From contig JANXOM010000321.1 in NCBI GenBank assembly GCA_025353585.1, forward strand, positions 1 through 35,312: DNA of 35,312 bases. The letters are read 5' to 3'. The position numbers were made by a program, and so were the translations under genes. The notes under the pieces are model-generated. The model searched no databases, was not told the DNA's origin, and saw only the letters and a program-made list of their open reading frames with translations. This DNA is from Deltaproteobacteria bacterium (GTDB lineage: Bacteria; Myxococcota_A; Polyangia; Haliangiales; Haliangiaceae). Shown piece by piece: positions 14,234 through 17,872 of the stretch; the stretch's first letter is position 1; every line of letters begins with the position of its first letter.

Positions 14234-14932
14234 TTGGCTGATCCTGACGTCGTGGGCCTGAACGTTGTCGGCCTGATCGTCGACGGCGACGAGCGGGTCG
14301 GCGAGGGCGGCTTCCTCGCGCTGCGCCGGCTGCGCTTGCGCAACCGGCGCGCGGATGGGAGCGCCTCGGCGCCCTACGTGAGCGACGCGGTCGCGCGGCC
14401 GTACGGGCAGGACGCGGTCGTGGTCGCGATCTACGCGCGCGGCGCGGATGGGGCGGTGCGCGTGCTGCTGCGCGAGGGGCTGCGGCCCACGATCGGGCTG
14501 TGTCGCGATGCCGAGCGGGCGCCGCTGCCGGAGCCGCCGCCATCGATCTGGTTGACCGAGCTCGTCGCGGGGATCCTGGAGGTAGGCGACCGGGGCGAGG
14601 CGGGGCTGCGGGCGCGGGCCGCGGCGGAGACGCTCGAAGAGGGCGGGTTCGTGGTGGACCCGGCGGCGATCGCGCTGCTGGGCGCGGGGATGCTGCCGTC
14701 GGCGGGGTGCCTCACGGAGAAGCTGTACTTCACCGCGGTGGACGTGGACCCGGCGGCGCAGGTGGCGCTCGCGGGGGACGGATCGCCGATGGAGGAGGGC
14801 GCGCGGACGGCGTGGCGCGGGCTCGACGAGGCGATCGCGGCGTGCGTGCGCGGCGAGATCTGCGATCTGAAGACGGAGCTCGGGCTGCGTCGGCTGCGCG
14901 ATGCGCTGGCGGAACAGCTGAACAGACACTGA
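14234..14932 (+). CDS. Nudix hydrolase with imperfect Nudix box
   Basis: A 232-residue protein from TTG at 14234, 3 bases after the lipoprotein stop; the start is uncertain because TTG is rare here. It resembles ADP-ribose/GDP-mannose pyrophosphatase-type Nudix enzymes: DAVVVAIYARG...RVLLREGLRP, then WLTELVAGILEVGDRGEAG and AETLEEGGF. The Nudix box normally reads GX5EX7REUXEEXGU. Here the helix reads AETLEEGG, with the Arg of RE replaced by Ala and one extra residue between the GE and that position, so the metal-binding Glu residues are largely kept but the motif is not canonical. Later segments (MLPSAGCLTEKLYFTAVDV) match the P-A-G-x-T-E-x-x region of this family. Probably hydrolyses a nucleoside diphosphate linked to another group; substrate unknown. 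Confidence 0.75.
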   Translation: MADPDVVGLNVVGLIVDGDERVGEGGFLALRRLRLRNRRADGSASAPYVSDAVARPYGQDAVVVAIYARGADGAVRVLLREGLRPTIGLCRDAERAPLPEPPPSIWLTELVAGILEVGDRGEAGLRARAAAETLEEGGFVVDPAAIALLGAGMLPSAGCLTEKLYFTAVDVDPAAQVALAGDGSPMEEGARTAWRGLDEAIAACVRGEICDLKTELGLRRLRDALAEQLNRH

Positions 14933-14947
14933 ACAGGCACTGAACAG
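14918..14947. repeat. Three 11-bp direct repeats upstream of the methyltransferase gene
   Basis: CTGAACAG occurs at 14918-14925, 14929-14936 and 14940-14947, spaced exactly 11 bases, about one helical turn. The first two units are CTGAACAGACA and CTGAACAGGCA. The array begins inside the end of the Nudix gene, spans its stop codon and ends 31 bases before the methyltransferase ATG. It could be an operator for the restriction-modification genes, or a simple tandem duplication of the Nudix 3' end. Confidence 0.6.
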
Positions 14948-14978
14948 ATTTGTCAGACCGGCGTGTGAAGGTGCACGC

Positions 14979-15716
14979 ATGGACGGAGCGAACTTCCACC
15001 TCGCACAAGGAGACGCGGTCGAGTGGCTGCGCAGGCTGCAGCCGGAATCGGTCGATCTGATGGTGACGGATCCGCCGTACGAGTCGCTCGAGAAGCATCG
15101 GGCGATCGGCACGACCACGCGGCTCAAGCACAGCAAGTCCTCGAGCAACGACTGGTTCGCGATCTTCAGGAACGAGCGGTTCCCGGAGCTGTTCGCCGAG
15201 GTCTACCGCGTGCTGCGCAAGAACAGCCACTTCTACCTGTACTGCGATCCAGAGACGATGTTCGTGGCCAAGCCGGTCGCAGAGACCGCGGGCTTCAAGT
15301 TCTGGAAGCCGATCATCTGGGACAAGAAGTCGATCGGGATGGGATACCACTACCGCGCACGCTACGAGTGCATCCTCTTCTTCGAGAAGGGGAAGCGAAA
15401 GCTCAGCGACCTGGGCGTGGCGGACATCCTCGAGCAGAAGCGCATCAACGGCGGCTATCCGGCCGAGAAGCCGCCCGAGGTGAGCGAGGTGCTCATCAAG
15501 CAAAGCTCGGTCCCCGGTGACGTCGTGGTCGATCCGTTCATGGGCTCGGGGTCGGTCGGCGTCGCGGCGACCGGGCTCGGGCGGACGTTCCTCGGCAACG
15601 ACATCTGCGCGGAGGCGGTCGACATCACGCGCTCGCGGCTCCGCGATGGCGGGGCGACCGAGCTCGGCACCGTGCCGACCGCGAGCACGGCGGGGCAGCT
15701 CGGGCTGCGCGTCTGA
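14979..15716 (+). CDS. DNA methyltransferase, N6/N4 type, probably type II
   Basis: A 245-residue site-specific DNA methyltransferase of the DNA_methylase N6/N4 family. Catalytic motif IV is DPPY (residues 31-34), preceded by LMVT, and the AdoMet-binding motif I is DPFMGSGSVG (185-194) near the C-terminus. This order (IV before I) is that of beta-class enzymes. DPPY favours adenine-N6 over cytosine-N4, without excluding the latter. The segment ESLEKHRAIGTTTRLKHSKSSSNDW after DPPY recalls other small methyltransferases. A GAAGG 8 bases before the ATG may serve as ribosome binding site. The PD-(D/E)XK gene follows after 21 bases; I infer a restriction-modification pair. Recognition sequence unknown. 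Confidence 0.9.
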   Translation: MDGANFHLAQGDAVEWLRRLQPESVDLMVTDPPYESLEKHRAIGTTTRLKHSKSSSNDWFAIFRNERFPELFAEVYRVLRKNSHFYLYCDPETMFVAKPVAETAGFKFWKPIIWDKKSIGMGYHYRARYECILFFEKGKRKLSDLGVADILEQKRINGGYPAEKPPEVSEVLIKQSSVPGDVVVDPFMGSGSVGVAATGLGRTFLGNDICAEAVDITRSRLRDGGATELGTVPTASTAGQLGLRV

Positions 15717-15737
15717 CGTGCACACCGAGGTCGCGGC

Positions 15738-16217
15738 ATGACCCCGATGTCTACGATGACCGGCAACCAGTACCGCGACCTCATCGCGGCGTACGTGCTG
15801 CACAACTACGCGCCGCACGGCATCGTGGTCTACCGCGAGGTGAACCTCGGCAAGACGATCATCGGCAAGGACCGCCAGATCGACGTGTTCGTGGTGCGGC
15901 CGAGCGATCAGAAGGCGCTCGCGATCGAGTGCAAGTACCAGGACGCGCTCGGCAGCGTCGACGAAAAGATTCCGTACGCGCTCGATGACCTCGAGGCGCT
16001 CTGGGTGCCCGGCTGCCTCGTGTACGCAGGTCGCGGCTGGTCGAAGGGCGTGCTGCACTTGCTGGAGGCGTCGCGGCTCGCCGCGCACTGCCAGCCGGAG
16101 CGGCCGCTCCTCGCGCGCGGCCGAGCGACACGCGAGCTCGACTACTTGCTCGCGGCCACGTTCGGGTTCTGGGAGCAGATCCTGCCCGCGGCCAAGCGCA
16201 TGAAGCGCGTCCCCTGA
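15738..16217 (+). CDS. Small PD-(D/E)XK nuclease-like protein, candidate restriction enzyme
   Basis: A 159-residue protein with the core of a PD-(D/E)XK nuclease: Glu34 in YREVNLG, KDRQIDVFVV (Asp49 at the start of the second core strand) and ALAIECKYQ (E64-C-K66) on the third, followed by a helix with DEKIPYALDDL. ECK with the upstream Asp is the usual metal-binding set. In-frame ATGs at 15738, 15747 and 15756 are all possible; the first is used. It follows the DNA methyltransferase by 21 bases in the same direction, so a type II restriction endonuclease is the most economical reading. A repair or mobile-element nuclease is the alternative. It is small for a full type II enzyme and no separate target-recognition domain is visible. 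The 95-bp repeats begin 11 bases after its stop. Confidence 0.7.
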   Translation: MTPMSTMTGNQYRDLIAAYVLHNYAPHGIVVYREVNLGKTIIGKDRQIDVFVVRPSDQKALAIECKYQDALGSVDEKIPYALDDLEALWVPGCLVYAGRGWSKGVLHLLEASRLAAHCQPERPLLARGRATRELDYLLAATFGFWEQILPAAKRMKRVP

Positions 16218-16296
16218 CCGAGCGGCGCTGAGCCCGCGTCGTCGCGGGCGATCTCCTCCGGACAGGCGCCGGCGGCGGAGCCGACAAGCCGATCGA

Positions 16297-16325
16297 CAGA
16301 GACCGCGATTTTTTCGCGGTCTCTG
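16297..16325. terminator. Hairpin in repeat unit 1
   Basis: CAGAGACCGCGA (16297-16308) and TCGCGGTCTCTG (16314-16325) form a perfect 12-bp stem around a TTTTT loop. It lies between converging genes; symmetric, so it could end transcription from both sides. Confidence 0.5.
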
Positions 16326-16391
16326 AGCCCGCGTCGTCGCGGGCGACCTCCGCCGTACAGGCGCCGGCGGCGGAGCCGACAAGCCGATCGA

Positions 16392-16420
16392 CAGAGGCCG
16401 CGATGTATTCGCGGTCTCTG
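16392..16420. terminator. Hairpin in repeat unit 2
   Basis: Same stem as in unit 1 with one G-U pair (CAGAGGCCGCGA against TCGCGGTCTCTG) and the loop changed to TGTAT. The stem is kept although the loop is not, suggesting selection on structure. Confidence 0.5.
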
Positions 16421-16444
16421 AGCCCGCGCCCCTCCTGGGTTAAC

Positions 16445-17872
<1,428 letters not shown>

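Follow-up and report, generated by a model that had tools for sequence, protein, structure and literature searches.

A predicted LexA/PafBC-type promoter element before a methyltransferase-nuclease gene pair in Kofleriaceae-type bacteria

According to the usual view, restriction-modification genes are under the control of small regulators of their own, and some of these systems are controlled by the methyltransferase itself. Control of type II systems by C proteins is described in the accessible part of a review (PMC3874152).

DNA-damage operators have been described in several bacteria. LexA of M. xanthus shifts boxes of the form CTRHAMRYBYGTTCAGS, and only five genes are reported as directly LexA-repressed in the available part of that study, which names no methyltransferase (PMC9705874). 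The text at hand of the M. xanthus DdiA paper contains none of the terms 'SOS box', 'LexA box' or 'consensus' (PMC12288472). The mycobacterial recA promoter P1 is independent of LexA and RecA and dependent on PafBC, and the portion of the source available gives its consensus as tTGTCRgtg-8nt-TannnT (PMC5656591). In Caulobacter the LexA operator is GTTC-N7-GTTC, and the Vsr-like endonuclease gene vsrA is suspected to be under LexA control, with a suspected box inside its ORF, according to the accessible sections of the report (PMC12907096). As far as those sections go, the suspected LexA control of vsrA is the nearest precedent met for the locus described here. In the open-access literature, myxobacteria included, the titles and abstracts among the matches listed contain no methyltransferase-nuclease pair that is damage-regulated by LexA or PafBC.

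The gene pair and the element before it

The locus lies in a window of 35,312 bases, by which the whole stretch of DNA analysed is meant, and comprises the following features.

14234..14932, plus strand: Nudix-like ORF, with its stop in repeat copy 2
14918-14925, 14929-14936 and 14940-14947, plus strand: three copies of CTGAACAG with an 11-bp period
14909..14944, plus strand: three weaker LexA-matrix matches ahead of the core, with starts at 14909 (11.56 bits), 14917 (10.88) and 14928 (11.89)
14939..14956, plus strand: conserved LexA-like box, here ACTGAACAGATTTGTCAG, the top match of the lexA + imuA matrix in the 35-kb window (16.06 bits)
14950..14958, plus strand: TTGTCAGAC, candidate P1 (RecA-independent, PafBC-type) promoter box, overlapping the right half of the LexA-like box
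14967..14972, plus strand: -10 element GAAGGT, separated by 8 nt from TTGTCAGAC on its left and by 6 nt from the ATG on its right
14979..15716, plus strand: DNA methyltransferase (N6_N4_Mtase, E 2.5e-34), the predicted regulated gene
15738..16217, plus strand: PD-(D/E)XK nuclease (PDDEXK_11, E 3.3e-38), 21 bases past the methyltransferase stop

The methyltransferase and nuclease genes are adjacent, as in a Type II restriction-modification arrangement, and the nuclease is probably part of the same operon. The pair is termed restriction-modification-like here, restriction by it being putative. Residues D49, E64 and K66 of the nuclease are invariant in eight aligned sequences (the window and seven homologues). 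A nuclease stands beside the methyltransferase in 31 of 55 loci, a count in which some regions are seen twice and several loci end too soon, and the record titles of these loci include Myxococcota, Acidobacteria and a cyanobacterial MAG. The arrangement occurs in 0 of the 15 gammaproteobacterial loci, again with several of the 55 loci ending too soon.

Some further peculiarities of these genes were observed. An intein-like insert, CLGP(D/E)T...VTHNC, follows WKP(I/L)IWDK in frame within the methyltransferase ORF of seven of the 16 relatives (G002, G003, G004, G005, G009, G010 and G028). Some of these inserts are short and some longer; in two of them Pfam gives a sub-threshold Hint_2 match and, in the longer one, also LAGLIDADG_3 and Intein_splicing. 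The window copy has no such insert. After the nuclease gene, 16228-16428 is a 95-bp tandem repeat (2.1 copies, 94% matches), the first copy of which contains a strong hairpin, AGAGACCGCGA...TCGCGGTCTCT. Three approximate 15-bp repeats (CCTGAACGTCGTCGG) occupy 14243-14287 at the start of the Nudix-like ORF.

The Nudix-like ORF itself shows weak likeness to its namesakes, with an NCBIfam ADP-ribose diphosphatase match far below the cut-off (E 2e-4) and no match in Pfam. A Nudix homologue is present in four of the 55 methyltransferase loci, many of which extend 1.5 kb or less upstream; these four represent two genomes each seen twice, in one of which the homologue is directly adjacent to the methyltransferase and in the other about 1 kb away. 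Since the homologue is rare and the element stays beside the methyltransferase, the overlap with the Nudix stop looks incidental, and a Nudix-gene duplication finds no support.

The methyltransferase has matches at E < 1e-50 in 17 of the 35 genomes of the order, namely this one, 13 of the same genus and three of the same family. Many of the loci L042-L080 are the same regions as genome loci already counted and do not enter the 15 relatives a second time, and the promoter of G008, where the methyltransferase is split over two contigs, is represented by L174. The gene is preceded by ACTGAAC-RGA-TTGTCAGAC-N8-nAnnnT or a close variant in 15 of 16 Kofleriaceae-type relatives, with ACTGAAC-RGA-TTGTCAG or a one-base variant directly before it likewise in 15 of 16. 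When aligned, the 15 relatives all read CTGAAC-(RGA)-(T/C)TGTCA..-N8-nAnnnT, and the start codon (ATG or GTG) follows exactly 6 nt after the element in ten of them and 7-9 nt after it in the other five. Element columns average 2.03 bits in the 15 relatives against 0.18 for 28 upstream columns, although the result is more fairly put as a fit to the element in 15 of 16 relatives, because the aligned rows were picked by a pattern covering part of it. Outside that pattern, the A (position 2) and the T (position 6) of the -10 hexamer are invariant in the 15 relatives, and a TG pair stands ahead of the -10 in 14 of 15. In G020, the sixteenth relative, the promoter reads TGTCACAG-N8-GAGGCT-N6-ATG, and CTGTTCACATGTTCAGC spans its ATG. 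In the window, the conserved element of the 15 relatives corresponds to the third repeat copy, with a spacer of four bases (AGAT) before TTGTCAG compared with RGA in all 15 relatives; the strict element pattern has 0 matches in this genome, whose core carries one extra base. The element is treated as a real regulatory element, every functional step of which is a prediction.

Homologues outside the family were also inspected. At 12 methyltransferase loci that are 66-75% identical (L047, L049-L059), the LexA matrix described below finds no promoter match. Two of these, from Archangium (L047 and L051), read by eye TGTCATAC-N8-TACGCT upstream of the gene. Three loci with Acidobacteria titles (L052, L053 and L054) were seen by eye to share GTGACCTAG(C/T)CTGTCA upstream of the methyltransferase, followed 13 nt after TGTC by TAGAAT or TACAAT, which is one base off the P1 spacing. 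Rheinheimera faecalis L060 has a perfect E. coli-type LexA box, CTGTATTCTTATACAG, at 2937-2952, with 3 bp between it and the ATG predicted at 2956. The expected number of such boxes is about 0.02 for 15 loci of 100 bp each and 0.08 for 400 bp each. The other 14 of the gammaproteobacterial homologues (15 including one Legionella) have no perfect box within 400 bp, and a box with one mismatch lies within that distance at L071 and L072. One perfect box in 15 loci thus establishes no general rule, and the L060 box is a speculative hint that this methyltransferase family came under damage control on separate occasions.

The LexA-like and P1-type halves

The element was scored with a LexA matrix built from lexA and imuA promoter sites only. 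A lexA start was found in 28 of 30 LexA-family loci (L114 and L115, other LexA-like proteins in which the regex gave no lexA start, were left out), and all 28 have two GTTCAG sequences 18 bp apart. These are CTGAAC boxes on the other strand and in most cases have a TTGACA promoter beside them. Among the imuA loci, 16 of the 21 displayed have CTGAAC in the examined slice, several as CTGAAC-N4-GTTC or CTGAAC-N4-GNNCAG. The remaining five were left out of the matrix: the slice lies inside the gene in L142 and L151, the site is out of range in L159 and L147 has GTTCAG. Four of the five have CTGAAC or GTTCAG before the gene, L144 being the sole omitted locus with neither 6-mer in front. L152, L154 and L155 are outside the displayed set, and L160 and L161 matched RecA, not ImuA.

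This matrix gives its highest score to the element in all 15 relatives that carry it (18.6-22.5 bits) and to the box over the start codon in G020 (18.81 bits); a putative operator matching the lexA operator of the lineage lies near the gene start in 16 of 16 relatives and in the window. The score of the window is lower because of the extra base in its core, and ranks 2-4 in the window all fall in the same cluster as the third copy (14909, 14917 and 14928). Among 139,702 background positions outside the matrix set, one scores 16 bits or more, and 0 of 1000 column-permuted matrices attain the observed median, figures that are to be read with the bias of the left half of the matrix in mind, since its training sites were chosen for exact CTGAAC or GTTCAG. 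As this site is ranked first by a matrix derived solely from lexA and imuA, the left part of the element is probably the LexA (SOS) half-site of the lineage. In its right half the box has TGTCAG where a palindrome would have GTTCAG, and this half may be conserved solely on account of the P1 box.

LexA is encoded in the genome (LexA_DNA_bind, 85.9 bits). Pattern scans of this genome covered 8,004,328 bases in 437 contigs, about 90% complete. The LexA scan with up to two mismatches gave no enrichment (22 matches against 25 in the control), and its one-mismatch matches are three, lexA and imuA, which are known SOS genes, and L117. The upstream region of recA1 has just one CTGAACAAATGTTCGG, which is distant, and the second recA locus has no such site close to the start. 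L117 is a gene with no Pfam or NCBIfam match, where a LexA-matrix site of 21.3 bits adjoins TGTCAGAC-N8-TAGGGT, and may be regarded as a candidate member of the damage regulon in this genome. A near-palindromic ACTGAACAAACATTCAG (LexA-matrix 22.3) was also seen at L037:2982-2998, in another family of the order.

The right half and the downstream hexamer, TTGTCAGAC-N8-GAAGGT, fit the P1 consensus in the box, the spacing and the A and T of the -10, and depart from it in the first T of the -10, where the window and 14 of 15 relatives have G or C. In imuA, TGTC stands at the same spacing before TACTGAAC in nine of 18 loci, all from the genus of the window, and there the LexA (CTGAAC) box covers the -10, apart from the TGTC box. 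The LexA-like and P1-type modules lie apart in imuA and in G020, and the lexA boxes accompany a TTGACA promoter, so that one module can be separated from the other; the remaining methyltransferase promoters have them fused. The P1-type pattern TTGTCRG-N10-TANNNT occurs at six places in this genome against 0 in the control. One of these is followed by recJ (401.2 bits, cut-off 396.9) with the same 6-nt gap to the start codon, another by a DprA-like gene (152.8 bits, cut-off 191.15), and the other four have no obvious repair gene downstream; neither the recJ nor the dprA site has a strong LexA-matrix match. The genome encodes a PafC-like WYL protein (HTH_PafC 86.8 bits, cut-off 32, with WYL and WCX) and, next to it, a second WYL protein with WYL and a sub-threshold HTH_PafC match (20.2). 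A sigma-70 promoter and terminator scan of 14850-16500 found nothing.

The element also occurs before other genes. With up to one mismatch, ACTGAACRGATTGTCAG is present at 16 places in 28 genomes, and its reversed control at none. The methyltransferase follows at 14 of these places, and the other two lie directly ahead of RadA/Sms (L183; 401.3 bits, just under the cut-off of 403.05) and of a radical SAM protein of the PA0069 family (L182; 391.5 bits, above the cut-off of 360). The composite CTGAAC-N3-TTGTCAG has 16 exact places in 28 genomes against three in the reversed control, of which 12 belong to the methyltransferase, one to the same radical SAM gene and one to a recG-like ORF in this genome (L201), which is partial, cut by the locus end and matches at E 2.9e-69, below the model cut-off. 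The last two, L193 inside an ORF and L194 before a kinase-like ORF, look like chance.

Predicted control of the pair and the repeat array

It is likely, judging from the promoter comparisons, that the methyltransferase and the PD-(D/E)XK nuclease belong to a DNA-damage regulon, with LexA as their repressor and PafBC as their activator. As long as the cells are undamaged, LexA would occupy the CTGAAC half-site or half-sites and extend over the TTGTCAG box that overlaps them. Once damage occurs, LexA would cleave itself under stimulation by RecA and so free the site. PafBC with RNA polymerase would then initiate at the promoter TTGTCAGAC-N8-GAAGGT, and the resulting mRNA would begin at or beside the ATG at 14979 and is possibly leaderless. 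Binding of LexA and PafBC to the element, and induction of both genes, are what we infer from the sequence. Since only five genes are directly LexA-repressed in M. xanthus, a wider LexA regulon in this lineage is put forward as our own suggestion.

The three repeats at exact 11-bp steps were correctly recorded in the earlier note, with starts at 14918, 14929 and 14940, as was the stop of the upstream ORF (14234-14932), the TGA of which sits in copy 2. Read on the minus strand, 14918..14947 is GTTC-N7-GTTC-N7-GTTC, and TRF calls an array at 14918-14948 (period 11, 2.8 copies, 90% matches). CTGAAC-N5-CTGAAC has two matches in the genome, overlapping and both in the array, against 0 for the reversed-pattern control. 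The bare signature GAAC-N7-GAAC-N7-GAAC was tried and dropped as uninformative, with four places in the genome against one in the control. The earlier note had also taken the repeats for an operator of the methyltransferase and proposed to look for them in relatives. An operator before this gene is indeed conserved there, in the form of the third copy, whereas copies 1 and 2 have no counterpart, 0 of the 15 element-bearing relatives have the triple array, and the likely regulators differ from the one suggested. The note's own refuting condition, repeats missing or variable in relatives, counts against the array and not against its third copy. The triple 11-bp array occurs in this genome only and is a private elaboration of a conserved site.

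Tandem duplication of an 11-mer is a plausible origin of copies 1 and 2, and there is almost an even chance that this duplication is neutral and that only the third copy with its P1 box is functional. This account concerns the array and is compatible with the promoter reading given above. The absence of the array from all 15 relatives speaks for it, as do the near-perfect period of 11 and the LexA-matrix scores of copies 1 and 2, which reach just 10.9-11.9 bits. Against it, three of the 15 relatives have an extra half-site 10-13 bp upstream of the core, as an inverted GTTCAG in L014 and L015 and as CTGAAC in L024. The number expected for 15 loci of 35 bp each is about 0.22 (on a post-hoc background estimate, P about 0.0015), which suggests selection for more half-sites and LexA contacts. 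Extra half-sites at 11-bp steps might then, speculatively, offset the core spacer that is one base longer here, or strengthen repression. Taken further, the fused element would wire the pair into both damage circuits, and LexA would here read a triple 11-bp direct-repeat operator as in alphaproteobacteria. This combined reading is rather unlikely. The listed lexA and imuA sites of this lineage have no 11-bp direct repeats, so that a LexA reading of the array stays speculative. If true, the combined reading would mean that operator geometry can change by the addition of half-sites.

A narrower alternative holds that the P1/PafBC-type promoter alone matters and that CTGAAC is part of an extended activator site and not a LexA site. 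The two Archangium loci would suit it, as the P1-like sequence seen there by eye has no LexA-matrix match with it. It is nonetheless improbable in view of the same separations that make the modules distinct, namely the imuA CTGAAC box on the -10 and away from TGTC, the G020 promoter with its LexA-like box over the ATG instead, and the lexA boxes beside TTGACA.

Self-repression by the methyltransferase through the repeats, as the earlier note had it, is known for some restriction-modification methyltransferases, and the element is seldom met before other genes, with 14 of its 16 places before this one. It is nevertheless very unlikely. The box is shared with the lexA and imuA promoters, radA, the PA0069-type radical SAM gene and the recG-like ORF and is thus not an operator specific to a C protein or methyltransferase of the system, so that LexA and PafBC are the likelier regulators. 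The 12 outside-family loci, for all their identity, lack a matrix match at the promoter, and Pfam gives methyltransferase families only in the protein. That the repeat is a functionless product of chance is scarcely credible, as its third copy is kept beside the start codon in 15 relatives, even though three copies of CTGAACAG, for which 0.47 are expected in the window, also arose in one of 100 window shuffles.

Comparison with described systems

If the LexA/PafBC control proposed here is correct, a system that cuts DNA may be deliberately raised upon damage to the chromosome, which poses the question of its purpose: it might shield DNA that has been repaired, act against DNA entering the cell, or bring about cell death. 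In our view the likeliest is that induction would serve to methylate newly repaired DNA or to arm the cell against incoming DNA, as repair synthesis leaves unmethylated sites. The fused element would also offer a route to a wider damage regulon in Kofleriaceae-type bacteria.

The element resembles the M. xanthus SOS box, as far as the available text describes it, in its CTGAAC/GTTCAG half-site, in the 4-base spacer and in the presence of the box in the lexA promoter. It differs in its right half, TGTCAG, and in this genome also in a spacer that is one base longer and in two more half-sites at 11-bp steps. With mycobacterial P1 it shares TTGTCAGAC, the 8-nt spacer and the A and T of the -10, in a genome that has a PafC-like and a second WYL protein. 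Unlike that of P1, its -10 starts with G or C here and in 14 of 15 relatives, and its TGTC box is joined to a LexA half-site.

The minus-strand copies have the same 11-bp direct-repeat geometry as the Caulobacter operator, twice overlapping, and the sections available of the Caulobacter report likewise link a methylation-related nuclease to the SOS response (PMC12907096); vsrA is, however, a Vsr-like gene and not a methyltransferase-nuclease operon. The adjacent DNA methyltransferase and PD-(D/E)XK nuclease recall type II restriction-modification, from which the locus is set apart by its predicted control by DNA-damage regulators of the host. Two DNA-damage control systems apparently meet here on one promoter outside actinobacteria.
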